Shown here one piece after another: positions 5,396 to 53,332 of a stretch of DNA of 64,000 bases; within the stretch, counting starts at the first letter, position 1; every line of letters begins with the position of its first letter. The position numbers and the translations under genes were made by a program. Under the pieces are notes generated by a model, which worked only from the letters and a program-made list of their open reading frames with translations, was not told the origin of the DNA and searched no databases. The stretch comes from Eubacterium sp. (GTDB taxonomy: Bacteria > Bacillota > Clostridia > Peptostreptococcales > Anaerovoracaceae). The stretch is taken from NCBI GenBank assembly GCA_017533915.1, contig JAFWHX010000015.1, positions 62,001 to 126,000 on the forward strand, in the 5' to 3' direction.

Positions 5396-6616
5396 TTAAA
5401 GTCCGTTGTAGATCGAGAACATGGCAATATATATTGCTATAACGATATATCCGGCTATAGCTCCCATGAATATCAAAGTAGCCGGTTCAAGTTTAGCGAG
5501 TGCAGCAGCGGTCGCTGCCTCAAGTTCAGTGTCATAGTACTGAGCAGTCATGCCGAGAGTATTCTCCAGCTCTCCACTTTCCTCGCCTACTGCAGTCATG
5601 TCGACAAGAATATCCGGGAGACATCCGGAGTTCCTCAAGCTGCCTCCAAGCGTATGACCTGTCTCAAGTTCTGCAACTATCTTTTCCACTTCAGAGCCTA
5701 TGTAATAATTCGATATAGCTCTTGAAGTTATGCCTACAGCTTTTGTCATTGGAAGACCAGCTCCAAGCATCATTGCCATGGTGTTTGCGAACTGACTTGA
5801 TGCATTAAGCATATTAATGTTACCCAAAACCGGAAGCTTAAGTGCGATCTTCGCAAGCCTCATTCTTCCATCTTCAGTATTGCCATATAATTTCAGCGCT
5901 ATCGCAGCTACGATCATCAATATTGCAATGATGAGCCACGACTTCCTGAAGAAATTGGAAATAATGATCAGCGACATGGTTATCGCAGGCATGTTATTGC
6001 CCTGTGCTTCAAAAATAGCCATGAAAGTAGGAACTACTTTCACCATGAGCACCATGACTACAATGATAGCCAATATGATAACAAATGTCGGGTAGATCAA
6101 TGCTCCCCTGACTTTACCCTTCAGCTTGAGCTGCTTGGTGAAATGGTCGCTTGCGGACTGGAATGCAGTATCCAGATTGCCGGCTTCTTCACCCGCATGA
6201 ATAGTCTCTAGGAAAGTTATCGGCAGGATCTTTCTTCCTCTGTCCGCAAAGCTCGCAGAAAGCGAACGTCCAGCTTCCACATCATCCGCGACCTGTTTCA
6301 GCAACTTCTTCAGAGTATTATCTGTCATTTTATCACTGATCAGCTGCACAGTCCTCGCGATAGGGATACCTGCTTTAAGTATCACTGCAAACTGGCTGCA
6401 CATCAAAGTGAACGCCTTATAGTTCAGACGATTGCCGTTGATATCTGTCGCAAGGAATGTCGATTTCCTGTCCTGCTCCTTTTCCGGTGCTATCTGGACT
6501 ACTATAGGATAATTCTGTTTGATCCTGTTCACGGCGTCCATCTGATTGACGCCCTCGATCACTCCGCTGATCTTCTTCCCGTCTTTTGATAAAGCTGTAT
6601 ATTTAAAAGTATCCAC
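5396..6616 (-). CDS. pilC: PilC, type IV pilus platform protein
   Basis: The protein has 406 residues, the usual length for the GspF/PilC family. It contains two homologous cytoplasmic helical domains (about residues 65-190 and 270-395), each followed by membrane segments. Family signatures include FTLMCSQFAVILKAGIPI, ETIHAGEEAGNL and the repeat copy TAVGEESGELE. It is the inner-membrane platform on which PilB and PilT act. The neighbours are pilT (10 nt upstream) and pilD (85 nt downstream, a gap that holds the palindromic 17-mer). Confidence 0.95.
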   Translation of the reverse strand: MDTFKYTALSKDGKKISGVIEGVNQMDAVNRIKQNYPIVVQIAPEKEQDRKSTFLATDINGNRLNYKAFTLMCSQFAVILKAGIPIARTVQLISDKMTDNTLKKLLKQVADDVEAGRSLSASFADRGRKILPITFLETIHAGEEAGNLDTAFQSASDHFTKQLKLKGKVRGALIYPTFVIILAIIVVMVLMVKVVPTFMAIFEAQGNNMPAITMSLIIISNFFRKSWLIIAILMIVAAIALKLYGNTEDGRMRLAKIALKLPVLGNINMLNASSQFANTMAMMLGAGLPMTKAVGITSRAISNYYIGSEVEKIVAELETGHTLGGSLRNSGCLPDILVDMTAVGEESGELENTLGMTAQYYDTELEAATAAALAKLEPATLIFMGAIAGYIVIAIYIAMFSIYNGL

Positions 6617-6626
6617 TGGATCCCCC

Positions 6627-7676
6627 TTAACAGTTCTTCTTTACATAATCTTTCTCATGAGCATACTCTACTGCGATGTCCTTGCTTATCTGCCCTGACC
6701 TGACGAGCTTTACGAGCGCCTGGTCCATGGTCTGACCGCCTATAGCGGCACTTGTCGCTACCGCGTTCTGGATCTGCGGCGTATTGCCGTTCCTGATCAG
6801 ATTTCTAACAGCGTCTGTTACTATCATCAGTTCTGCTGCAAGAGCTCTTCCTCCCATTTTCTTTGGAAGGAGCTGCTGTGATATTACCGCCTGCATGCAC
6901 GTAGAAAGCTGCAACCTGATCTGTGTCTGCATACCTTCCGGGAATGTTTGCACGATACGGTCGATAGAATCCGCAGCGCTGCCTGTATGTAGTGTACCGA
7001 ACACCAGATGTCCGGTCTCAGCTGCTGTTATCGCGGTCTCTATCGTTTCCTTGTCACGCATCTCACCGATGAGGATCACGTTAGGGTCCTCACGGAGGCT
7101 CGCTCTCAACCCTGATGCAAATGAACCTGTGTCTTTGCCCACTTCTCTTTGGTTGATCGCCGCCTTGTCTGGCTTATACAGATACTCGACAGGATCTTCA
7201 AGCGTTACTATATGGCAGTTCTTGGTGTGATTGATATAATCGATCATCGCAGCAAGTGTAGTTGATTTACCGGAGCCAGTCTCTCCTGTTACGAGCACGA
7301 TCCCTTTGTGCAGGTTAGGAAGATCCAGCGCCGCCGGCGGAAGTCCAAGCACCTTTAGATCAGGTATCGTATCCGACAAAAGCCTGAGTGCTGTAGACGG
7401 CACGCCCTGCTGCTTGAAAATATGGATACGGCAGCGGTTATCGGCATATGTCTCAGCGGCATCGAGCTCGCCTACTTTCTCAAATTCCGCATACGCCTCT
7501 GGCGTCTTTGCCTGTTCTTTCGCATATTCTATACATTCCTCCTTGGTAAGCGGAGCATCAGACATGTTCCTGAGCTCACCATCCACCCTGTACTTTGGTG
7601 GAAGTCCGCAGATCAGATGGATATCTGACGCGCCGTCTGCTTTTGCTTTCGCTACCAGCTGCTCTATAGTCAGCAT
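6627..7676 (-). CDS. pilT: PilT, type IV pilus retraction ATPase
   Basis: I take ATG 7676 (after AAGGAGG), giving 349 residues; a longer reading to 7721 would pass through that ribosome-binding site. The Walker A motif is GETGSGKST, followed by the Asp-box/Walker B region (NVILIGEMRD) and the His-box (GHLVFGTLHTGSA). The C-terminal AELMI motif (AAELMIVTDAVRNLI), characteristic of PilT retraction motors, is present. The protein is a hexameric cytoplasmic ATPase. Its presence suggests a retractable pilus and possible twitching motility. Confidence 0.95.
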   Translation of the reverse strand: MLTIEQLVAKAKADGASDIHLICGLPPKYRVDGELRNMSDAPLTKEECIEYAKEQAKTPEAYAEFEKVGELDAAETYADNRCRIHIFKQQGVPSTALRLLSDTIPDLKVLGLPPAALDLPNLHKGIVLVTGETGSGKSTTLAAMIDYINHTKNCHIVTLEDPVEYLYKPDKAAINQREVGKDTGSFASGLRASLREDPNVILIGEMRDKETIETAITAAETGHLVFGTLHTGSAADSIDRIVQTFPEGMQTQIRLQLSTCMQAVISQQLLPKKMGGRALAAELMIVTDAVRNLIRNGNTPQIQNAVATSAAIGGQTMDQALVKLVRSGQISKDIAVEYAHEKDYVKKNC

Positions 7677-7725
7677 TCCGATTCCTCCTTCATGCCTGAT
7701 CGGCATTCTGAGCAGAAACAATTAA

Positions 7726-9453
7726 CTAAATATCTTCGTAAACTACTCTCAGAACTTCGTCTGTGGTGGTAATACCCTGTTCTACAAGGTTGATCGCGCT
7801 CTGCTTGAGCGATACGAAGCCGCTCGCAGGGTCAGTCAGCATAGTCTCTATAGCTTCTCTCCCGGCTCCTTTAGCGACCATACGTCTGACTTTTATGCTG
7901 AGCGGGAATATCTCGAATACTCCAGTCCTTCCTCTGTAACCTGTATCAAAGCACTTAGGACAACCTTTGCCTTTATAGAACACGCGGTTAGGGTCATATT
8001 CAAGTCCGAGGCTTTGCTGCTCTTCTTCAGATGGATGATATGGCTCCTTGCAGTCCGGACATACCTTACGGACAAGTCTTTGTGAGAATACACCCTTGAC
8101 TGCGCTTGCCACGAGGTACGGCTCCACACCCATATCTACAAGACGCTCAATCGTACCGATCGCATCGCTTGTATGGATAGTGGACAGTACCACATGACCT
8201 GTAATAGCAGATCTCATCGCGATCTCCGCTGTTTCACCGTCACGTATCTCACCTACGCAGATGATATCAGGGTCCTGTCTCAAGATCGATCTGAGACCTG
8301 TAGCAAAAGTCATCCCGGTCTTTTCGTTTATCTGCACCTGATTGACTCCGTCGACGTTATACTCTACTGGGTCTTCCAGAGTAACCAGATTTACTTCCCT
8401 TGTATTAAGTTCATTTATCATGGAGTACATGGTCGTAGTCTTTCCGCTTCCTGTAGGACCTACGATAAGTATTACGCCATTCTTGACTTTTATAAGCTTT
8501 TCGTATTTCTTAAGATCATCCGGCTGGAGGCCTATAGCGTCACGGCCAAGATTACCGGTCGTTTTATCGAGAAGTCTGGCTACGATCTTTTCACCATAGA
8601 CAGTAGGAAGAGTCGATACACGTACGTCGATGTCTTTGTTCTTTATACGCACGTTGAAACGTCCATCCTGAGGCACGCGGCGCTCCGCGATATCAAGATT
8701 CGCCATGACTTTGATCCTGGCGATCACAGATGATTGGAGCTCACTTGGAACTGTCAGGATATCTCTAAGAAGACCATCTATACGCATACGCACTGACAGC
8801 TGCTCTTCGCGAGGCTCGATGTGGATATCGCTGGATCTCTCTGTAACAGCTCTCTCCAGGATAGAGTTCACAAGTCTGATTGCAGGTGCCTGGCTCGCGC
8901 TATCTTCGCCAATAAGCGTAGACGCTGCGATGTTGTCAGTAGAGGCGCCTTCATTTTCTGACATGGCAAACTCTTTTTTCATCTCTTCGATCGCCTTGGC
9001 AGCTCCGACATTACCATACAATACCTGTATAGCCCTGTCGATCGAATCTGCAGTCGCGATCATCGGAACGACCTTCTTCTTTACGACTTTCCTGACTTCC
9101 TCTATAGCATAAAAGTTCAGTGGGTCGCTCATCGCCAGGTAGAGCTCATCTCTTATCAGCCTTACAGGAACGACCTGATACTGCTTTGCGATATTCTGAG
9201 GAACTACCTGAGCAAGCTCCGTAGGGATCGTGATCTTATTCAGATCCACGAACTCCACGCCGAGCTGCATCTGAAGAGCTTCAATCATCTCCATTTCGGT
9301 GATCATTCCCGCTTCCTGGAGCACTGTACCGAGACGTTTGCCGGTTCCTTTTTGTAGCTCCAGCCCTTTGGCGAGTTCTTCTTCCGTAAGAAGACCCGCA
9401 GAGACCAAAAGGTCTCCCAGTCTTAAATTCTTTGTCGATGCTGCGTTTTTCAT
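7726..9453 (-). CDS. pilB: PilB, type IV pilus extension ATPase with c-di-GMP-binding MshEN domain
   Basis: The protein has 575 residues. Residues 10-60 contain two successive RLGxxL...GxxxxxxxxxxLxxQ motifs (starting RLGDLLV and RLGTVLQ), the bipartite c-di-GMP-binding signature of MshEN domains. The motor core follows, with Walker A GPTGSGKTTT, Walker B region DIICVGEIRDGET and His-box. A zinc-binding tetracysteine (CPDCKEPY ... CPKCFDTGY) lies near the C-terminus, as in PilB and GspE. It powers pilus extension. It is the first gene of the operon. A diguanylate cyclase gene ends about 310 bp upstream, so direct c-di-GMP control of assembly is a reasonable inference. Confidence 0.96.
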   Translation of the reverse strand: MKNAASTKNLRLGDLLVSAGLLTEEELAKGLELQKGTGKRLGTVLQEAGMITEMEMIEALQMQLGVEFVDLNKITIPTELAQVVPQNIAKQYQVVPVRLIRDELYLAMSDPLNFYAIEEVRKVVKKKVVPMIATADSIDRAIQVLYGNVGAAKAIEEMKKEFAMSENEGASTDNIAASTLIGEDSASQAPAIRLVNSILERAVTERSSDIHIEPREEQLSVRMRIDGLLRDILTVPSELQSSVIARIKVMANLDIAERRVPQDGRFNVRIKNKDIDVRVSTLPTVYGEKIVARLLDKTTGNLGRDAIGLQPDDLKKYEKLIKVKNGVILIVGPTGSGKTTTMYSMINELNTREVNLVTLEDPVEYNVDGVNQVQINEKTGMTFATGLRSILRQDPDIICVGEIRDGETAEIAMRSAITGHVVLSTIHTSDAIGTIERLVDMGVEPYLVASAVKGVFSQRLVRKVCPDCKEPYHPSEEEQQSLGLEYDPNRVFYKGKGCPKCFDTGYRGRTGVFEIFPLSIKVRRMVAKGAGREAIETMLTDPASGFVSLKQSAINLVEQGITTTDEVLRVVYEDI

Positions 9454-11311: not shown

Positions 11312-11499
11312 ATCTGCCTCTTTATAACTTCTGATCTGTTTTTATTATACCATATAGTAAATCATATAAGCAGAACTATCTGTTTCAGCCACATGTTTTA
11401 ATATATCTGTAATATTTACAGTTTATTATATAATATTATTTGATTTAAAATTTTAATATGCTATTATTAATCATAGTATTTAATAAGGAGGCAGCAACT

Positions 11500-12267
11500 A
11501 TGAATAAAAAAGGCTTTACTCTTGCAGAGCTTCTTATAGTTGTAGCGATAATCGCTGTTCTGGTTGTGATCGCTATTCCCATTTTCACAAAGCAGCTTGA
11601 ACGGAGTCGCGAAGCCACAGATCTGGCGAATGTACGCAGCGCTTATGCTGAGGTCATGACAGCAGCCGCAAGCAACGATACAAGTTCACCAGTATATAAG
11701 GGCGACGGTACTTATCAGTCAGTGGTCTCACCATTAAAGCAGAAAGAAGATGGGTGGGCTACAAATGTAGATAACATAGAGATTGGCGGCGTACCCAGCA
11801 GTACATGGATAGGCGAGCCGACAGCTGGAGGAAGCTGTACGGTAAGTTTCAATACCTCGTCCGAAAAAGTCACCATCAACTGGGGCGGATCAGGCGGCGG
11901 CACTGGCGGTGACACTCCAGGAGGAGATGGCGGTGACACTCCAGGAGGAGATGGCGGCGGCGGAGATGATCCAGCTTCAGAAACTGCGGCGCCTTTGGAT
12001 TCTGCTATTAAATCTGCAGCAGAAGCTGCATTGCTTAACCTTATAGGTACTCCACATGGTTCCCAGAGACTTACTGTTACCATCAGTAACGGAACAGTTT
12101 CAGTGAATACTCACGGCAATCCAAGCGAACGTGTAACCGAAGCTTCAGTTATCAATGTGCTTAGATCATTACCTGGAGTTACATTTGATTCATCCGGAAA
12201 GATGTACAGCAACGGACATCCGGTGACAGATACGATCGCAGTTCATTACACGCCGAGCGGACATTAA
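11500..12267 (+). CDS. Type IV prepilin with Gly-rich linker and extra C-terminal domain
   Basis: ATG 11500 (after AAGGAGGCAGCA) gives 255 residues; an in-frame ATG at 11458 lacks a binding site and would lengthen the leader. The class III leader MNKKG is cut before FTLAELLIVVAIIAVLV, with Glu5 of the mature protein present. A pilin core follows to about residue 128, then a Gly/Asp/Pro linker (about 129-162) made partly by a perfect 24-bp duplication at 11908-11955 that repeats GDTPGGDG. A C-terminal domain of about 90 residues (LTVTISNGTVSVNTHG and onward) has no counterpart in the second pilin. This suggests a major-pilin duplicate carrying an exposed module, perhaps a minor or adhesive pilin. 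It is one of only four plus-strand genes here. Confidence 0.9.
   Translation: MNKKGFTLAELLIVVAIIAVLVVIAIPIFTKQLERSREATDLANVRSAYAEVMTAAASNDTSSPVYKGDGTYQSVVSPLKQKEDGWATNVDNIEIGGVPSSTWIGEPTAGGSCTVSFNTSSEKVTINWGGSGGGTGGDTPGGDGGDTPGGDGGGGDDPASETAAPLDSAIKSAAEAALLNLIGTPHGSQRLTVTISNGTVSVNTHGNPSERVTEASVINVLRSLPGVTFDSSGKMYSNGHPVTDTIAVHYTPSGH
11908..11955 (+). repeat. Perfect 24-bp tandem duplication inside the pilin linker
   Basis: Positions 11908-11931 and 11932-11955 are identical. They encode two copies of GDTPGGDG in the linker between the pilin core and the C-terminal domain. Copy number changes would keep frame and alter linker length. Confidence 0.9.
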
Positions 12268-32739: not shown

Positions 32740-35343
32740 TTATTTGACCTTAGGGCTTACTGCGACCTTACTGTAATCTCCGTATACATCTCCCTTTGCG
32801 TAAGCTCTCATGCGGATGTCGTACTTCTTGCCCTTCTTTAGCTTCGTCAGAACAAGCTTTGTCGACTTGACGCCGTACGTCTTTGTCTTCCACTTCTTTG
32901 TCCCATTTACACGATATGACAGCTCATACTTGGAAACACCTGAAGCTTTCTGGTTCTTCACAGTAACTGTGAGCTTTTTCTTTCCAGAAGCGACCTTGGA
33001 GATCACACCGCGCACCGGCTTGATCGAGAACGTGGCCTTTACTGATCCCGAATAGTTGTCAGTCGTAGGTGATACAGTTATAGTAGCTTCTCCGCACTTC
33101 ACGTTATTCTTATATGTCAACTTGAACTGGTCCAGATCGACAAGACTTCCGAGGTTATCTACTACAACGACGTAATCACACTTAATAGCTTTTCCGGTAT
33201 ACACATGTTCCCTATCGAAGACAAATGCGCCCACGAACTTAGGCTGAATAACTTTGATCTTTACTACACTTGTTCCGATGATCTTCTTTTGTCCACCGTC
33301 AAGATAACTGGCTTCAACATAAAGATTTGTTGTTCCTTCTTTCAGGCCCCTGACAGTGATCTTTGTATCATCAACATAATCCTGAGTGACTGATGCGATC
33401 TGATCGCCGCCCTCTTCAAGCGTCACATCTACCTTTACATCATCAGGCAGCAGCCCTGCATCACCCTTGAATACTACTCTGAACCAATCTTCATTAGATA
33501 TGCTGGTCGATGAAACCGAAACAATATCCGGCACCTTGAATCGGATATTTGTTGCCTCTGTATTGTATGCCTTTATCGGCAGGTTATCATATGCAAAGAA
33601 GTCCTTTTCCTCTCCGGAGTTAAGGTACTTAACGATCTCTGTGAAATCTGTCCAGCCGGTATCATCAAGTACATAGCTTTCCTTCTCATTGACTACGCCT
33701 ACACCCCATGTTCCGAGATCCAGGAAGTTACTGTATTCTTTACCAAGTCCCTGCGGGAATACGATGGAGTGTATACCGTCCGCCAGAATGTGAGTCTGTA
33801 CTACACTGTAGTGCTGTCCCTTCATTATTGTCTGCGGTACATTAAGATCCATCTTATGGAATCCACCAAAGGCATATGTATTTTCAATAGTGTCAATAAG
33901 CTTGCCATCTGTAGGATCAGTGAAGCCTTCGTTGAGCAGATAGATCTCACTTATGACCTTGGTGTCAGGATGTGTAGTCTGACATGATACCTGTTCCAGG
34001 TTCTGACAAACCTCTGCCTGGAATACATTAGCGAACTTGAGATCCGCATCTTCCACCGTCATATAATTACTTGTGCCAAGCAGATCGTGCTGATCAAGAT
34101 AATATTTCTTTCCGATATTGCTCTTATCAAATTCGAATGACTCGATCATTGCGAGTGACTGATCATAATATGACAGCCAGAAGTATCCGGTACCCTTTCC
34201 TTCTTTGTTCTGGATACCCCAGTTCCCGCCGCCTTTTGCCGGGAATTCTTCCTCGCCGGAGCCCCAGCTGTTCTTGACGAGCCATGCACCAGGTGCAGGA
34301 GGTTTATGACCTTCTACAAACTGTACCGGTGATCCCTCAGCACCAATCGTGTCATCCCATCCTACTATGCATACACCATGGTTTGCGCGATTTGCATCAT
34401 ATGTATAATGAGCCCAATCCTTACTGATATACTGGCCATCGCCTGCTTCCTGGCTCGGCATGAACGAATCCGCATGGAACGCAACAGTGACTGCACGGTT
34501 ATTCATGAGCTCTCTCTTGATAGCTTTTGTCGCATCCTCGTCATATTCGTATCCGGATTCATCTACCATAGCAGGAGTAGGGAATATTGAGGATTCCTTC
34601 AAAACATATGACTGATAAAATCTGTACTTGGAAGGGATCGACCAGTCATCTTCATCGTCATAGCAGTAGTCCTGAAGCACTCCATCGATCCTGCGCTTCT
34701 GTACATTCCCTTCTCTGCCCTTGTACTCAAGAATGTGCTCATCTTCTGGATCGAGCTTATCTCTGTTTTCCAGATTCGGACCCATGCCCGATGAGAACAG
34801 GCTTGTGGCATATGTCATCTGACCGCCGCGGTTCAGCATGTCTACAACTGATATTCCTTTTTCAGAATGTGTTCCTTCACCGTACTGACGATGATTTTCA
34901 TCGTCTATGTACTGAGAAACGAAATACACAAGATGCTTCTCTGACAGATCCAGTGTTTTATCATTATATCCATCAGTTTCAGCAAGACCGCTGCTCAGGA
35001 GACTGCTCTCAGCCGCAGCCATCGCCGAAAAGCCCCAGCATGTTCCAAACGGATTCTGGAATCTGACCGGTGTGACGTATGACTTATCGTCTCCATCATC
35101 AAGGAACTTAGAAGAAAGGTCCCACTTTTCAGGAAGTGCTTCTCCCTCGTTCAGCTTGAGCCTTGATGCTTTCGTCAGGAAAGCAAACGGGTCTCTGTTC
35201 TCATTCTGTCTGAGTATCTCCTGCGCGAATGCCTTTGCGTGCTTATCCGCAGCATTGGATTTCGTGTCAGCAGATACAGTCATTGGCAAGGCGCCGCAGA
35301 TCATTGCCAGAGACAGTGCCAATGCCAGCATTTTCTTCATCAT
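32740..35343 (-). CDS. Secreted papain-family (C1) cysteine protease with Ig-like and FN3 domains
   Basis: The start is ATG 35343 (a second ATG follows at once), 7 nt after AGGGGA, giving 867 residues. A signal peptide ends near VSADT. The C1 domain (about 70-370) has Gln/Cys in RFQNPFGTCWGFSAMAAAES, His in ANHGVCIVGWDD and Asn in LVKNSWG, a complete catalytic set. A 'lectin-like' beta region follows, then two Ig-like modules, including the YTGKAI ... YKNNVKCGEATI type, and a C-terminal FN3-like domain (about 775-865). No sortase motif is seen, so it is probably released or held by its repeats. Its promoter overlaps the terminator of the gatD-like gene. Confidence 0.9.
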   Translation of the reverse strand: MMKKMLALALSLAMICGALPMTVSADTKSNAADKHAKAFAQEILRQNENRDPFAFLTKASRLKLNEGEALPEKWDLSSKFLDDGDDKSYVTPVRFQNPFGTCWGFSAMAAAESSLLSSGLAETDGYNDKTLDLSEKHLVYFVSQYIDDENHRQYGEGTHSEKGISVVDMLNRGGQMTYATSLFSSGMGPNLENRDKLDPEDEHILEYKGREGNVQKRRIDGVLQDYCYDDEDDWSIPSKYRFYQSYVLKESSIFPTPAMVDESGYEYDEDATKAIKRELMNNRAVTVAFHADSFMPSQEAGDGQYISKDWAHYTYDANRANHGVCIVGWDDTIGAEGSPVQFVEGHKPPAPGAWLVKNSWGSGEEEFPAKGGGNWGIQNKEGKGTGYFWLSYYDQSLAMIESFEFDKSNIGKKYYLDQHDLLGTSNYMTVEDADLKFANVFQAEVCQNLEQVSCQTTHPDTKVISEIYLLNEGFTDPTDGKLIDTIENTYAFGGFHKMDLNVPQTIMKGQHYSVVQTHILADGIHSIVFPQGLGKEYSNFLDLGTWGVGVVNEKESYVLDDTGWTDFTEIVKYLNSGEEKDFFAYDNLPIKAYNTEATNIRFKVPDIVSVSSTSISNEDWFRVVFKGDAGLLPDDVKVDVTLEEGGDQIASVTQDYVDDTKITVRGLKEGTTNLYVEASYLDGGQKKIIGTSVVKIKVIQPKFVGAFVFDREHVYTGKAIKCDYVVVVDNLGSLVDLDQFKLTYKNNVKCGEATITVSPTTDNYSGSVKATFSIKPVRGVISKVASGKKKLTVTVKNQKASGVSKYELSYRVNGTKKWKTKTYGVKSTKLVLTKLKKGKKYDIRMRAYAKGDVYGDYSKVAVSPKVK

Positions 35344-35401
35344 CAAAATCTCCCCTTTCATTCCTGGTCATCAATCTAACCATAATGGTTTTTATATTAG
35401 C

Positions 35402-41673: not shown

Positions 41674-42252
41674 CTATTTAAGCGATGACTTATGAAGATA
41701 ATATCCCTTCCATTTGCCGGACGCGATCTTATACCATCCATCATCAAGATCAGTTACTTTTACAGTCTCACCATTGTTCAGCCTTCCCACCTGAGAATAG
41801 CTTGTCCCGCGGCCTGTCCTTACCGCAGCAAAACCATCCCATGCGTCGACTGTGAACGTTTCGGCGCCGTCATCTTCATCATCCGCGTCGTCATCTTCAT
41901 CGTCCGCGTCATCGTCCTCATCAGCACTGTCGTTGTCATCATCCGTCAGATCGTCATCCTGATCGTCATCGTCATACAGATCTTCATCATCTTCATCGAC
42001 GTCATTATCAGTCAGATCGTCATCCCAGCTGTCGTCCTGATCATCAGGATCTTCGTCACCGGTGCTGTCAGGATCTGACGTTTCTTCCTGCTGTGTCTCT
42101 TCTTGTGTAGTACCAGATGAATATGTGCCATTGACGATGACATCCTTTATCTTAAGCATGAACAGAGTTCCCGCAACAAGCCATATCAAAGCGAGGATCG
42201 TCAGGACCAGTGCTGTTTTTCCTTTATTCGGATTTTCAGGTCTACTTCTCAT
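41674..42252 (-). CDS. Membrane-anchored SH3b-domain protein with long Asp-rich spacer
   Basis: ATG 42252 follows GAGGAGAT, giving 192 residues. A single N-terminal transmembrane segment lies at about 14-36. Residues about 55-125 consist almost only of Asp, Glu and a few Ser/Ala/Gln (repeats like DDADDEDD). A C-terminal bacterial SH3 domain (about 130-190; LNNGETVKVTDLDDGWYKI) should bind peptidoglycan. It is a probable cell-wall sensor or tether. The polyacidic spacer may span the wall or bind cations. Confidence 0.85.
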   Translation of the reverse strand: MRSRPENPNKGKTALVLTILALIWLVAGTLFMLKIKDVIVNGTYSSGTTQEETQQEETSDPDSTGDEDPDDQDDSWDDDLTDNDVDEDDEDLYDDDDQDDDLTDDDNDSADEDDDADDEDDDADDEDDGAETFTVDAWDGFAAVRTGRGTSYSQVGRLNNGETVKVTDLDDGWYKIASGKWKGYYLHKSSLK

Positions 42253-42273
42253 ATATCTCCTCAATACGGCGCC

Positions 42274-43673: not shown

Positions 43674-45821
43674 TCAGTACTCAGGTACTACGTCTTCGTC
43701 CGGGTCTTCCTGCTGAGCTCTGGCTGCTTCCATGGCTTTCGGCAGGACTTCGAGAAACTGGTCGACTTCCTCTTCAGTATTGTAGATCCCGAAGCTCACA
43801 CGGATCATGCCAGGGGTCTTTGCGTCTGTACAGCTCTCGAATGATTCCACCATGCTGTCTGGTATGTCCATAAGACGCCATACGTATGGATGTGCGCAGA
43901 AAGCCCCACGTCTTGTAGCCACCGCGCCGAGTTCGCTCAGTTTGTCAGCGACAAGCTTTGAATTGATGTCTGTGAAGTTGAATGTGACTACGCCTACACG
44001 GTCATCGATATTCTCGGAATCTCCATAGATGATAGCGTTGTCATATTGTTTGATACCTGCGATCAGCTTGGTGTTAAGGGCTTTTTCGTGTGCGGATATA
44101 GCGTCAAATCCTACGTCGTTCAGTATATCCAGTGCTTTGCCGAGTCCTACGACTCCAGGATAATTCGGTGATCCGGCTTCGTATCTCGCAGGTGCTTCTT
44201 TATAGTGCTGCCAGTAATCTCCGACGACCGTTACAGTACCTCCGCCGTAGAATGTCGGCATACGTTTGTTCAGGATCTTTGATGGCCCTACTACTGCGCC
44301 GCCGCCATACGGTGAATACATCTTATGAGCGGAGAATACGAAGAAGTCGATGTCAGCGTCATCTGTCTCACCCTGCATAGAGAATTTTCTGTGGGCTACG
44401 ATCTGAGCTCCGTCAACGATTATCTTTGCGCCGTATTTGTGTGCCAGTCTTGCTACACGGTGTACGTCTGTTACATAGCCTGTTACGTTGGATGCCGCGG
44501 TAACAGTTACGTACTTGATCTTCCCTTTATACTTCTTCAGCATCTTCTCTATGTTGCCATAGCTGATACGTCCGTCTTTCTCGACCTCTGCATACACTAC
44601 TTTGCAGCGTTCACGCCACGAAAGGTCATTAGCATGATGCTCCATCCTTGTCGCGAGCACGATGTCCTTCTTGCTCTTCACGAGGGCGGATGCCAGTTTG
44701 TTCAGACCGTCTGTCGTATTGTTAACGTAGAAGCATGTATAGATCTCAGGATCTGCACTCACGAAATCGAGCACTTTGTCACGGGTGTGAAGATACAGCT
44801 CTGTTGAATAGTTGGACTTCTGCGACGAGCCGCGGCCGATCGATCCATACATCTCTAGCTTCTCATCGACTTCTTCCATTACGTCACGGAATGCCGGAGT
44901 AGTCGCGGCATTATCAAAGTTGATCATCGGCTTTTCTGTACCGTCTGCCAGCTTCACAGGAGCATCAAGGCCTACTATTATATCTCTGATATTGCTGATG
45001 TCGTATTTGTCCTCATCAGCAAGAGAATCGCCTGTCACGATGACGTCGAGGTTCTGTTCAAATACACTATCATCAGAGAATGTGATCTTCACATTAAGGT
45101 TCGTTTTCCCGGAAGCTTTTGCTGTGAGGACCCCATCTTCAGTGAGATCAACTATCGTTGATCCGTCTTCTGCATACTCGTTTATTATCTTTGGATCTGT
45201 ATCTTCAGGAGCACCTGTAAGGGTATACTCTGCTTTATAATCAGTCTTATTGATCCTGGTCCCGATCGATGCATTATGCATTATCTCTTCGTACAGAACT
45301 GTGCCATAATCCATCGTCTTTTTCTTATCACCGAGATTCAGCTTGAGCCAGATGCTGCTTGGTCCCTTGTCGTTAAAATACACAGCGGCATCTGCGACGT
45401 CTGTCATCTTTGCCTGTTTCACTTTGATCGTGATAGTACCAATCTTTGTCTTTTTTCTGGCGCCTTTTTTCTTCTCGTAGATAACAGCTGAAGTCTTGCC
45501 GATACTTTTCGATACAACCAGCTTCTTTCCGTAGATAGATTTGACAGGGCTGTTTACGACCGCTGCGATCTTCTTATTCTTGACTACTGCTGAATAAGTC
45601 GCTTTCTTTTTTGGATTTTCCACTATGCGTGACAGCGGTTCGCACGCGTCAGGCATGTATCTGCTGTCGATGTACTTACTATACGTCAGTGTGATTTTTT
45701 TATCTTCATCTGATATTCTTGTCTTCGCAACTGCTCTGGCAGGTGCCATTGCCTGCAGGCCGAGGATCATAAGCGCTGTCATAACAGCTGCTGTTAAGGC
45801 CCATCTTTTTGCTAGTTTCAT
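43674..45821 (-). CDS. Exported cysteine-desulfurase-like PLP enzyme with Ig-like N-terminal half
   Basis: ATG 45821 follows AGGGAGAA, giving 715 residues. Residues 1-32 are a classic signal peptide (KLAKRW, hydrophobic core, APARAVA). Residues about 40-290 are beta-rich and Lys-rich with a BIG2-like stretch (DLTEDGVLTAKASGKTNL). Residues about 295-700 are a class V aminotransferase/cysteine desulfurase: NFDNAATTP, MEHHANDLSW (PLP-stacking His), IIVDGAQ (PLP-N1 Asp), FSAHKMYSPYGGG (Schiff-base Lys) and RGAFCAHP (persulfide Cys). All key residues are present. The C-terminus is acidic; no sortase motif. Export of such an enzyme is very unusual. It could make sulfide or alanine outside the cell. 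Confidence 0.9.
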   Translation of the reverse strand: MKLAKRWALTAAVMTALMILGLQAMAPARAVAKTRISDEDKKITLTYSKYIDSRYMPDACEPLSRIVENPKKKATYSAVVKNKKIAAVVNSPVKSIYGKKLVVSKSIGKTSAVIYEKKKGARKKTKIGTITIKVKQAKMTDVADAAVYFNDKGPSSIWLKLNLGDKKKTMDYGTVLYEEIMHNASIGTRINKTDYKAEYTLTGAPEDTDPKIINEYAEDGSTIVDLTEDGVLTAKASGKTNLNVKITFSDDSVFEQNLDVIVTGDSLADEDKYDISNIRDIIVGLDAPVKLADGTEKPMINFDNAATTPAFRDVMEEVDEKLEMYGSIGRGSSQKSNYSTELYLHTRDKVLDFVSADPEIYTCFYVNNTTDGLNKLASALVKSKKDIVLATRMEHHANDLSWRERCKVVYAEVEKDGRISYGNIEKMLKKYKGKIKYVTVTAASNVTGYVTDVHRVARLAHKYGAKIIVDGAQIVAHRKFSMQGETDDADIDFFVFSAHKMYSPYGGGAVVGPSKILNKRMPTFYGGGTVTVVGDYWQHYKEAPARYEAGSPNYPGVVGLGKALDILNDVGFDAISAHEKALNTKLIAGIKQYDNAIIYGDSENIDDRVGVVTFNFTDINSKLVADKLSELGAVATRRGAFCAHPYVWRLMDIPDSMVESFESCTDAKTPGMIRVSFGIYNTEEEVDQFLEVLPKAMEAARAQQEDPDEDVVPEY

Positions 45822-45930
45822 AAAATTCTCCCTACTCACTGATGATCATATTAATGTCAGTTGATCAAAACTTTATTGCTCTGCTAAACAGTGCAATCCT
45901 CTAGCATTATATACCTTTGCAGTAAAAAAA

Positions 45931-45971
45931 GCATTAATAAACAGCCCCGCATCTTCCGATGCGGGGCTGTT
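45931..45971 (-). terminator. Terminator of the rpsB-tsf operon
   Basis: AACAGCCCCGCATC and GATGCGGGGCTGTT make a perfect 14-bp stem with a 4-nt loop, followed on the minus strand by TTATTAATGC and a T7 run. Confidence 0.9.
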
Positions 45972-51676: not shown

Positions 51677-53332
51677 TCATTTGACTTTGATCGTTATTAT
51701 GCCGGTCTTTTTCTCAGGCAGATATTTACTCGTGCCTTTGGCGGTCACGGTGACTTTCATCTTATATGTCCCCTTCTTGGTGCCCTTCTTCACTTTGATC
51801 GCCGTAGTCTTTTTGTTGAATGTCAGCGCTTTTCTTGATTTCTTGTCTACACCTTTTCCTGAGTATGAAAGATTCTTTTCAGGACAATCAGATGTTACCA
51901 TTACCGCCCAGACAGTAAACGTGTACTTTTTCAGCCTGGAATACTTCAGCTTCTGAGTCACGTTCTCTATCTCGACGTCAGAAGGCACCTTCCATACAAG
52001 AGCCTTGCAGCTGATCTCCTGCGGAGATGAGACCGGCATCTGATAGAACAGCAATTTACGTTCATTGTATGAGTACCACACGATCTGACCGTCCTTTATG
52101 ATCGGCTCACAGTCACTGAGTATTCCGTTCATCTTATATACTTCTGATGTGGCTTCGCCCTTCCCATTGAGATAGACGCATTTTATCACATCTTCTTTTT
52201 CAGTGCTGCCATACTCATTCCAAATCAGAAGAAAAGTATCATTGTTGATTTTGACGAGATATGGATTTGACACGTGCCTGTCGCCATCTTCCGAAAAGTC
52301 CGTAAACCATCTGAGAGTATTATCGCCGGTTTTTTTGTTTACCGCTCCGACGAAAACGTTGTATGTCATATTAGTACCGCTGCTTTGATCGGCTGAAGAG
52401 CCTGCGACAAGATACGATGAATCCGAGACCTGAAGATCTCCGAGCATTACTCCGGTCTCTCTGTAATTGCTCCTCTGCGCAGCTTCTATTATATCAACTG
52501 AAAACCTGCGATATCCGTTTCCGGTGAATACCGACGGATCACTGCTCTCAGGATCCTCGTTCATATAACGGTCGTCGTATACGGCAAGCCGTATTCCCCT
52601 CGGACCGCTGTCGCCATGATCCGCTACAACTATTTTATCATCGTCAGTGCGGATAAGCTGCATGAACGAATGAGATGCAAATTGCATGGAAAAAGCTTCG
52701 ACCTTGTCCATCTTATCCACATCTAAGAATAAAGACAGATTTTTCTGATGATTCAAGCCGTCAGCGGTCTGATACTTCTGGTGACAGGTGTGAATGATAA
52801 GATAATGGCCCCATCCTTCTATATCACATGAGCCGAAACTGAAAGGAGAGTATACATCTGAACCGTAAAGGCTTGCAGAATCGATCCTGTTCCAGCTCTT
52901 GTCATACTTGGTGATCCTTATCACTTCTTTATCGTCAGACTCATCTCTATTATAGTCGCCTGTCACTATGTAGTAATAATCGCCATATGCGTAAAAGCCT
53001 CCCCAGTATGGCAGTTCCTTCTTCAGCGTCTTGTATGTATCACCGATCCTGTTGAAATCATCGTCATAGTATTCTATCCCGACGAGGTCAAAATCAACGT
53101 CATCTATATCATCGCTGTTTATGCCTCCGGTCTGGACACGCATATATCCATTATCTGTCGGCACCAGATATGAATATGTAATATCTCCCCATGTACTGTA
53201 GGAATGTCCGTAATAATTACGTCCCCACATAAATTCAGCTTTTGCCGCATACGAGGAGACCGCACTTCCGACAAATATGACCATAAGCATTATGGTAAGA
53301 ATCAATGCTGATCTGAAATGCTTTCTTTTCAT
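51677..53332 (-). CDS. Large secreted protein of unknown function with Ig-like C-terminus
   Basis: The protein has 551 residues with an N-terminal signal peptide (KRKHFRSALIL..., cleavage near SYAAKA). The body (about 30-440) is rich in Tyr, Trp, Asp and Gly, with repeated short beta-strand patterns ending in Asp turns, which suggests a beta-propeller. I do not recognise a family. The C-terminal 110 residues, ending GIITIKVK, form an Ig-like module similar to other secreted proteins here. No sortase signal. It interrupts the yicC-gmk-rpoZ order. Confidence 0.75.
   Translation of the reverse strand: MKRKHFRSALILTIMLMVIFVGSAVSSYAAKAEFMWGRNYYGHSYSTWGDITYSYLVPTDNGYMRVQTGGINSDDIDDVDFDLVGIEYYDDDFNRIGDTYKTLKKELPYWGGFYAYGDYYYIVTGDYNRDESDDKEVIRITKYDKSWNRIDSASLYGSDVYSPFSFGSCDIEGWGHYLIIHTCHQKYQTADGLNHQKNLSLFLDVDKMDKVEAFSMQFASHSFMQLIRTDDDKIVVADHGDSGPRGIRLAVYDDRYMNEDPESSDPSVFTGNGYRRFSVDIIEAAQRSNYRETGVMLGDLQVSDSSYLVAGSSADQSSGTNMTYNVFVGAVNKKTGDNTLRWFTDFSEDGDRHVSNPYLVKINNDTFLLIWNEYGSTEKEDVIKCVYLNGKGEATSEVYKMNGILSDCEPIIKDGQIVWYSYNERKLLFYQMPVSSPQEISCKALVWKVPSDVEIENVTQKLKYSRLKKYTFTVWAVMVTSDCPEKNLSYSGKGVDKKSRKALTFNKKTTAIKVKKGTKKGTYKMKVTVTAKGTSKYLPEKKTGIITIKVK

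Follow-up and report, generated by a model that had tools for sequence, protein, structure and literature searches.

A clade of exported, SufS-like class V pyridoxal phosphate proteins in gut and rumen bacteria: probable surface-held cysteine desulfurases

What place has a protein with the fold of a cysteine desulfurase outside the cell? The question is raised by a gene in a 64,000-nucleotide stretch of a Eubacterium sp. genome (assembly GCA_017533915.1, contig JAFWHX010000015.1, positions 62,001 to 126,000), the whole of which is called the window here. The gene's product, the window protein, joins a signal peptide and immunoglobulin-like (Ig-like) domains to a class V enzyme domain that uses pyridoxal 5'-phosphate (PLP), whereas cysteine desulfurases are regarded as enzymes of the cell interior that provide sulfur for cofactors and tRNA. 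The reading favoured here, at a probability of about 0.6, places the window protein in a clade of SufS-like cysteine desulfurases that are exported by Sec and held at the surface. Its export and its fold are well supported.

The three-part architecture, proposed in a first-pass annotation made from the sequence alone, is borne out by a home-made signal rule for the signal peptide, by a structure model for the Ig-like region and by PF00266 (Aminotran_5) for the class V domain, which scores 276.8 bits against a cut-off of 21.5 (Table 1). The catalytic domain has a SufS-like fold and is about 33% identical to SufS of B. subtilis. The signal carries neither a lipobox nor a twin arginine, as judged by the rule and by reading of the N-terminus, and its likely cleavage, judged by eye, is at ARA/AVA within residues 28-32. 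Between signal and enzyme, residues 34-268 are modelled as a beta-sandwich fold with a predicted local distance difference test score (pLDDT) of 92.6, and the structures they match, with moderate Z, are S-layer, LigA, Big_2 and further beta-sandwich domains; a PDB profile search with the N-terminal alignment gave short partial matches only, and a Pfam scan of the window protein gave no dockerin match.

Is this arrangement the peculiarity of a single gene? The window protein is not a lone fusion but belongs to a family of exported class V PLP proteins, and both a lone fusion and a misassembly were rejected because exported versions recur across many genomes. Within the genus the gene is found in two of 17 genomes at 74% identity or above, the window's own genome included, while in the taxonomic family a homologue of at least 65% identity is present in 16 of 349 genomes and a match with E <=1e-45 in 30. 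The N-terminus is intact in twelve of the family homologues, which belong to genera g50 and g92 (L059-L072, L068 and L071 excepted), and all twelve carry a lipoprotein-type signal in place of the Ig-like domains, clear in eleven and atypical in L070. As for the misfits, the N-terminus of L068 looks like a fragment of some unrelated ABC transporter, probably an effect of assembly, and that of L071 is truncated; in L072 the reading frame is lost close to the 3' end.

A scan of named genomes widened the family to 541 relatives, of which the best 80 were kept, a sample that leaves more distant members outside it. These 80 come mostly from uncultured Firmicutes, many labelled as ruminant gut, and include Ruminococcaceae bacterium P7. 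After three truncated loci had been dropped, 77 could be read from the start codon, and the rule found signal features in 73 of them. The four misses are likely to reflect two contig edges, one interrupted upstream frame and one wrong start. The 73 calls comprise 43 lipobox-like and 30 ordinary signals, although about 14 of the 43 are ambiguous by eye, with an AxA site downstream (for instance L085-L089, L093 and L094), and some ordinary calls resemble lipoboxes (L123, L137 and L147). A loose twin-arginine pattern occurs in four of the 77 (L079, L092, L097 and L153). Applied to 50 genes of the window, the rule gave ten ordinary, one lipobox and one membrane call; most of these calls, though not clearly all, concern proteins that are exported or lie in the membrane.

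The means of attachment vary as well. In the alignment set A3, which holds the window protein, its orthologue and 75 relatives (77 in all, near-copies L131 and L158 excluded), Pfam recognises Aminotran_5 in 77/77, Big_2 in 25, Dockerin_1 in nine and a redoxin-like domain in one. Such an association of one catalytic domain with several different surface anchors is hard to explain unless the domain works outside the cell, and, of the earlier proposal of an enzyme acting outside, the export is the part with strong support, given a whole clade in which the Sec-type signals and the anchors differ. Dockerin-like repeats can also be discerned by eye in the N-termini of L090, L091, L095, L098, L100 and L101, and of L108, L112, L125 and L155. 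Their position on two separate branches of the tree suggests more than one link to dockerin-cohesin assemblies. The redoxin-like member, L137 (7188-9335), is lipoprotein-like and runs from an AhpC/TSA (TlpA-like) domain through a Big_1-like stretch to the class V domain.

By which route would these proteins leave the cell? TatC, a component of twin-arginine translocation (Tat), scored over its cut-off in 0/16 carrier genomes (the window's own included, and with one sub-threshold match) against 11/14 control genomes, a result that is weakened by genome quality, six of the 16 reaching 90% completeness with no more than 5% contamination and the other ten falling short. The 80 named relatives stand outside this sample of carriers. 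Tat export is made unlikely by this absence of TatC among the carriers together with the lack of a twin-arginine motif in the window protein, and the TatC counts point to Sec as the probable route. Since Sec passes unfolded chains, PLP would have to be bound outside the cell, after export. A different order of events is described for PvdN and PtaA, periplasmic PLP enzymes that are exported by Tat with PLP loaded inside (excerpts of PMC6206403), a Tat signal also being listed for PvdN in part of PMC6085387; a broad-spectrum racemase, again a PLP enzyme, is active in the periplasm (excerpts of PMC6034422). In the light of these sources, as far as their excerpts go, the first-pass annotation went too far in its premise that enzymes of this kind are confined to the cytosol. 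As to the supply of the cofactor, PdxS and PdxJ were each unmatched in 17/17 carriers, and for this reason the carriers probably depend on outside vitamin B6. PdxS, however, is over its cut-off in just 6/99 genomes of the taxonomic family, so that its absence does not set the carriers apart, and the vitamin B6 argument was dropped.

The active site resembles that of SufS, with one exception. The four residues singled out in the first-pass annotation, the Schiff-base lysine, the PLP-stacking histidine, the aspartate facing the pyridine nitrogen and the loop cysteine, are indeed all present, and in the alignment K500, H395, D470, Q473, R637, C642 and R674 are invariant in 89/89 exported sequences, a number that includes near-copies and partial genes, and in 35/35 sequences of an unexported sister group. 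From alignment to SufS we take K500 to be the Schiff-base lysine, H395 the stacking histidine, D470 the pyridine aspartate and Q473 its glutamine neighbour; C642 would be the persulfide cysteine, and R637 and R674 presumably the equivalents of SufS R359 and R379, R674 matching R376 in the B. subtilis enzyme and R379 in that of E. coli. The exception is the position of SufS H55, which is glycine (G329) in 89/89 exported proteins against histidine in 32/35 sisters. Two further features mark the exported proteins: an extra cysteine, C664, and an aromatic last residue (Y, F or W, mostly as P-x-Y), which is found in 85/88 exported against 4/37 unexported proteins. A lipobox-bearing exported paralogue, 53% identical, occurs at L073 (8677-10083) and L074 (8642-10000). 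Both copies have glycine in place of C642, as do both members of the unexported pair L077/L078, and L073 and L074 also lack C664, R637 and R330 while keeping the PLP lysine K500; to judge by these residues the paralogue may carry out a different reaction or simply bind PLP.

Where did the exported enzymes come from? In a tree of 92 catalytic domains, 66 exported sequences, the window protein and two exported paralogues form one clade with a support of 100 in the Shimodaira-Hasegawa-like approximate likelihood ratio test (SH-aLRT); the tree was built by a quick method, is rooted at its midpoint and has some long branches, and 21 exported sequences, mostly near-copies, as well as three entries of the window's own genome were left out. 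The nearest group outside the clade, the sister group, belongs to Clostridia and other Firmicutes and is about 40% identical to the exported proteins. By the rule, 32 of its 34 proteins have no signal peptide, and the two exceptions, L233 and L234, look like wrong starts; the 34 loci were the leading entries of ranked lists rather than a random draw, with L077/L078 counted apart. Catalytic-domain matches with E <=1e-90 occur in 48/391 genomes of the class and 37/398 of the phylum, the window's own genome being in both counts, and the matches listed are 37-47% identical except for that genome and for G673 (70%, with a lipobox, locus L247).

The sister loci (L227-L261 without L247), from Firmicutes, hold unexported class V genes near DsrE2-type genes. 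Such a gene is present in 15 of the 34 loci, and in 12 of the 15 it shares the strand of the class V gene at a distance of no more than 600 bp. Three were checked and gave 185-196 bits with DrsE_2 (cut-off 25), whereas the one scanned with the stricter NCBIfam DsrE2 model stayed below its cut-off (56.1 against 210). In one study, sulfur binding by DsrEFH was tested by incubation with IscS and cysteine (excerpts of PMC3397948). It is thus possible that the sister class V gene and the DsrE2-type gene form a desulfurase-carrier pair, a pairing for which no report was found in Firmicutes among titles and abstract starts. These neighbours of the sister group suggest that cysteine desulfuration was the ancestral chemistry of the exported clade. 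The desulfurase activity put forward in the first-pass annotation emerges as the most likely one, indirectly supported by the invariant catalytic residues, the SufS-like fold and the sister group's DsrE2-type neighbours.

For the substrate, products and purpose of the window protein the following course may be inferred. The chain would pass Sec unfolded and its signal would then be cleaved, the Ig-like domains keeping the enzyme at or near the surface, a task for which relatives would use a lipid anchor, Big_2 repeats or a dockerin. Folded outside, the class V domain would take up PLP from its environment and bind it through K500. The substrate, L-cysteine or something closely related, would form an aldimine with PLP while R674 holds the substrate's carboxylate, and attack of C642 on the sulfur would yield alanine and a C642 persulfide, from which sulfide would pass to outside thiols. 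C664 may resolve this persulfide. Taken to its full extent, with a widespread gut and rumen clade in surface-held and dockerin-bearing forms, PLP loaded after Sec, C664 as resolver and carrier-free release of sulfide outside the cell, unlike the intracellular Suf, Isc and Nif systems, the scheme is tentative and more doubtful than the membership of the clade itself.

A number of observations weigh against a desulfurase acting in this way. The window protein reaches 285 bits with the NCBIfam SufS model TIGR01979 (cut-off 475.1) and is also under the cut-offs of the CsdA, NifS and IscS models, of the selenocysteine lyase model SclA (123.4 bits against 525) and of the family 2A encapsulin cargo model NF041166 (218 against 800). 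The active site is altered at G329; PDB entry 6mr6, however, is titled as H55A SufS with cysteine persulfide, so a change at this position need not abolish activity. The glycines of L073/L074 and L077/L078 show that the loop cysteine is lost in near relatives. One DsrE2 query found no match among 1007 open reading frames (ORFs) of the 97 exported loci (blastp, E 1), DrsE_2 is over its cut-off in only 3/17 carrier genomes, and no dedicated sulfur acceptor is known. When the same ORFs were clustered, no widely conserved neighbour appeared around the 97 loci, many of which are short, the most shared type being an ABC transporter ATPase in ten and the next occurring in eight. The redoxin-like domain of L137 has no CxxC, by reading, which makes this fusion a weak functional clue, and the host genome also holds two NifS/IscS-like genes, so that the window gene is not its sole class V desulfurase candidate.

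Some of these points would suit a neighbouring chemistry, namely an exported class V lyase serving as a nutrient-scavenging exoenzyme on another sulfur or selenium substrate, whether as cystine or cysteine S-conjugate beta-lyase, selenocysteine lyase or cysteine-sulfinate desulfinase. G329, the presence of selenocysteine lyase among the class V relatives and the fact that no dedicated acceptor gene was found near the exported loci speak for it. Pure beta-lyases such as C-DES, however, are not known to need the loop cysteine, which here is invariant, and the DsrE2-type neighbours of the sister group point to persulfide delivery; taken together, these possibilities are held to be unlikely. Quite improbable is a tailoring enzyme acting on an exported peptide or metabolite in the manner of PvdN. 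PvdN and PtaA are indeed examples of PLP enzymes that tailor products beyond the cytoplasm (excerpts of PMC6206403), but no neighbour family recurs in more than ten of the 97 exported loci, as a common biosynthetic cluster would require, PvdN travels by the Tat route, the window protein is without a twin arginine, none of the 16 carriers has TatC over its cut-off, and the PvdN model, listed for one of four proteins, scores 26.5 against a cut-off of 650.

Could the protein be no enzyme at all, and instead bind PLP outside to capture vitamin B6, or serve as a structural module? The unmatched PdxS and PdxJ and the paralogue that has lost C642 and kept K500 would agree with such a role, but PdxS is rare in the whole family and C642, R637 and R674, invariant as they are, are not obviously needed for PLP capture, so that the likelihood of this explanation is very slim. 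It is scarcely credible, finally, that translation starts downstream of the signal sequence or that the protein is cytosolic. The secretome listed for Granulicatella adiacens includes a cysteine desulfurase (excerpts of PMC6491454), so that detection at the surface is by itself little proof; against an artefact stand the ribosome-binding-like site ahead of the first ATG, the signal peptides kept with differing sequences by the orthologue and most of the clade, and the Ig-like or dockerin modules that lie between signal and enzyme in many members. A cysteine desulfurase held at the surface thus remains the preferred account.

How new would this be? PLP enzymes outside the cytoplasm are already known (PvdN, PtaA and the racemases), so the exported clade is no new category; its surprising features are its breadth, its apparent Sec export, the occurrence of versions with a dockerin or a lipobox, and a cysteine particular to the clade. 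The exported family of gut and rumen bacteria is apparently undescribed. Among open-licence papers, judged by titles and abstract starts, with few subscription papers, no exported cysteine desulfurase family was found, nor any report joining dockerin with cysteine desulfurase. The words aminotransferase, desulfurase, pyridoxal and transaminase are absent from the main texts, supplements aside, of six cellulosome, amylosome or R. flavefaciens papers (PMC2930009, PMC4081043, PMC11557425, PMC5814915, PMC3672088 and PMC9112005), and a 2026 review of gut sulfide (PMC13232883) covers cysteine desulfurases, the word "extracellular" being absent from the portion consulted. If the favoured reading is true, PLP chemistry with release of sulfide or persulfide takes place at the surface of anaerobes in gut and rumen, cysteine may be an extracellular source of gut sulfide, and the question arises of how a PLP enzyme acquires its cofactor outside the cell without Tat.

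Table 1. Coordinates in the window of the gene for the exported class V protein, its domains and selected residues
Feature	Position	Strand	Basis or conservation
Whole gene, exported class V PLP protein, 715 aa	43674..45821	(-)	
AGGGAG, ribosome-binding-like, 6 nt 5' of ATG	45828..45833	(-)	sequence reading
Sec-type signal peptide, residues 1-32	45726..45821	(-)	home-made rule and reading; helix 2-24 in model
Ig-like (Big_2-like) domain 1, residues 34-139	45405..45722	(-)	structure model; relatives match Big_2
Ig-like beta-sandwich domain 2, residues 140-268	45018..45404	(-)	structure model
Class V PLP (SufS-like) domain with its N-terminal arm, residues 270-700	43722..45014	(-)	
H395, PLP-stacking His	44637..44639	(-)	89/89 exported, 35/35 sister
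K500, Schiff-base Lys	44322..44324	(-)	89/89 exported, 35/35 sister
C642, loop Cys, SufS persulfide Cys equivalent	43896..43898	(-)	89/89 exported, 35/35 sister
C664, extra Cys of exported clade	43830..43832	(-)	89/89 exported, 0/35 sister, 0/2 paralogue
R674, substrate-carboxylate Arg equivalent	43800..43802	(-)	89/89 exported, 35/35 sister; alignment
P-E-Y C-terminus, last residue aromatic	43677..43685	(-)	
Perfect 13-bp inverted repeat then T-rich tail, terminator-like, end of upstream tsf gene	45941..45970	(-)	sequence reading

The inverted repeat was not picked up by a terminator scan, and counts of promoter-like sites (7 against a shuffled mean of 4.1, standard deviation 2.0) and of terminator-like sites (2 against 2.5) are uninformative. 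Elsewhere in the window, the gene order and a pilin-like N-terminus (KGFTLAELLIVVAIIAVLVVIAI) at 5396-9453 and 11458-12267 look, to judge by the sequence, like those of a type IV pilus cluster. On the minus strand lie a C1 (papain-family) peptidase that starts with a signal-like stretch and has Lectin_like and fn3 regions (32740-35361), a 551-residue protein whose N-terminus is signal-like, whose C-terminus looks Ig-like and which matches nothing in Pfam (51677-53332), and a protein in which a hydrophobic N-terminal segment and a long Asp-rich linker precede a bacterial SH3 domain (41674-42264).

How, then, does the window protein compare with known systems? With the group II enzymes SufS/CsdB (SufS of B. 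subtilis and E. coli) it shares the equivalents of K500, H395, C642, R637 and R674, and it differs from them in its export, its extra N-terminal domains, the glycine at the H55 position and the extra invariant C664, its one-third identity to B. subtilis SufS going with a score under the SufS model's cut-off. The unexported sister group has the same catalytic residues and the same N-terminal arm ahead of the PLP domain, but has histidine at the G329 position in most members, no C664 and, in many loci, a DsrE2-type gene. From the family 2A encapsulin cargo cysteine desulfurase the window protein differs in that its extension is made up of signal peptide and Ig-like domains. PvdN presumably has a class V fold too, and the periplasmic broad-spectrum amino acid racemases have a fold and chemistry unrelated to class V. 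Their setting is the Gram-negative periplasm. These racemases are likewise exported PLP enzymes (PMC6034422, in excerpt). PvdN, which tailors pyoverdine in the periplasm, is like the window protein as read here a PLP enzyme acting outside the cytoplasm, and it is unlike it in its siderophore substrate. It also differs in its Tat export, with PLP loaded inside (PMC6206403, and for the Tat signal PMC6085387, both in excerpt).
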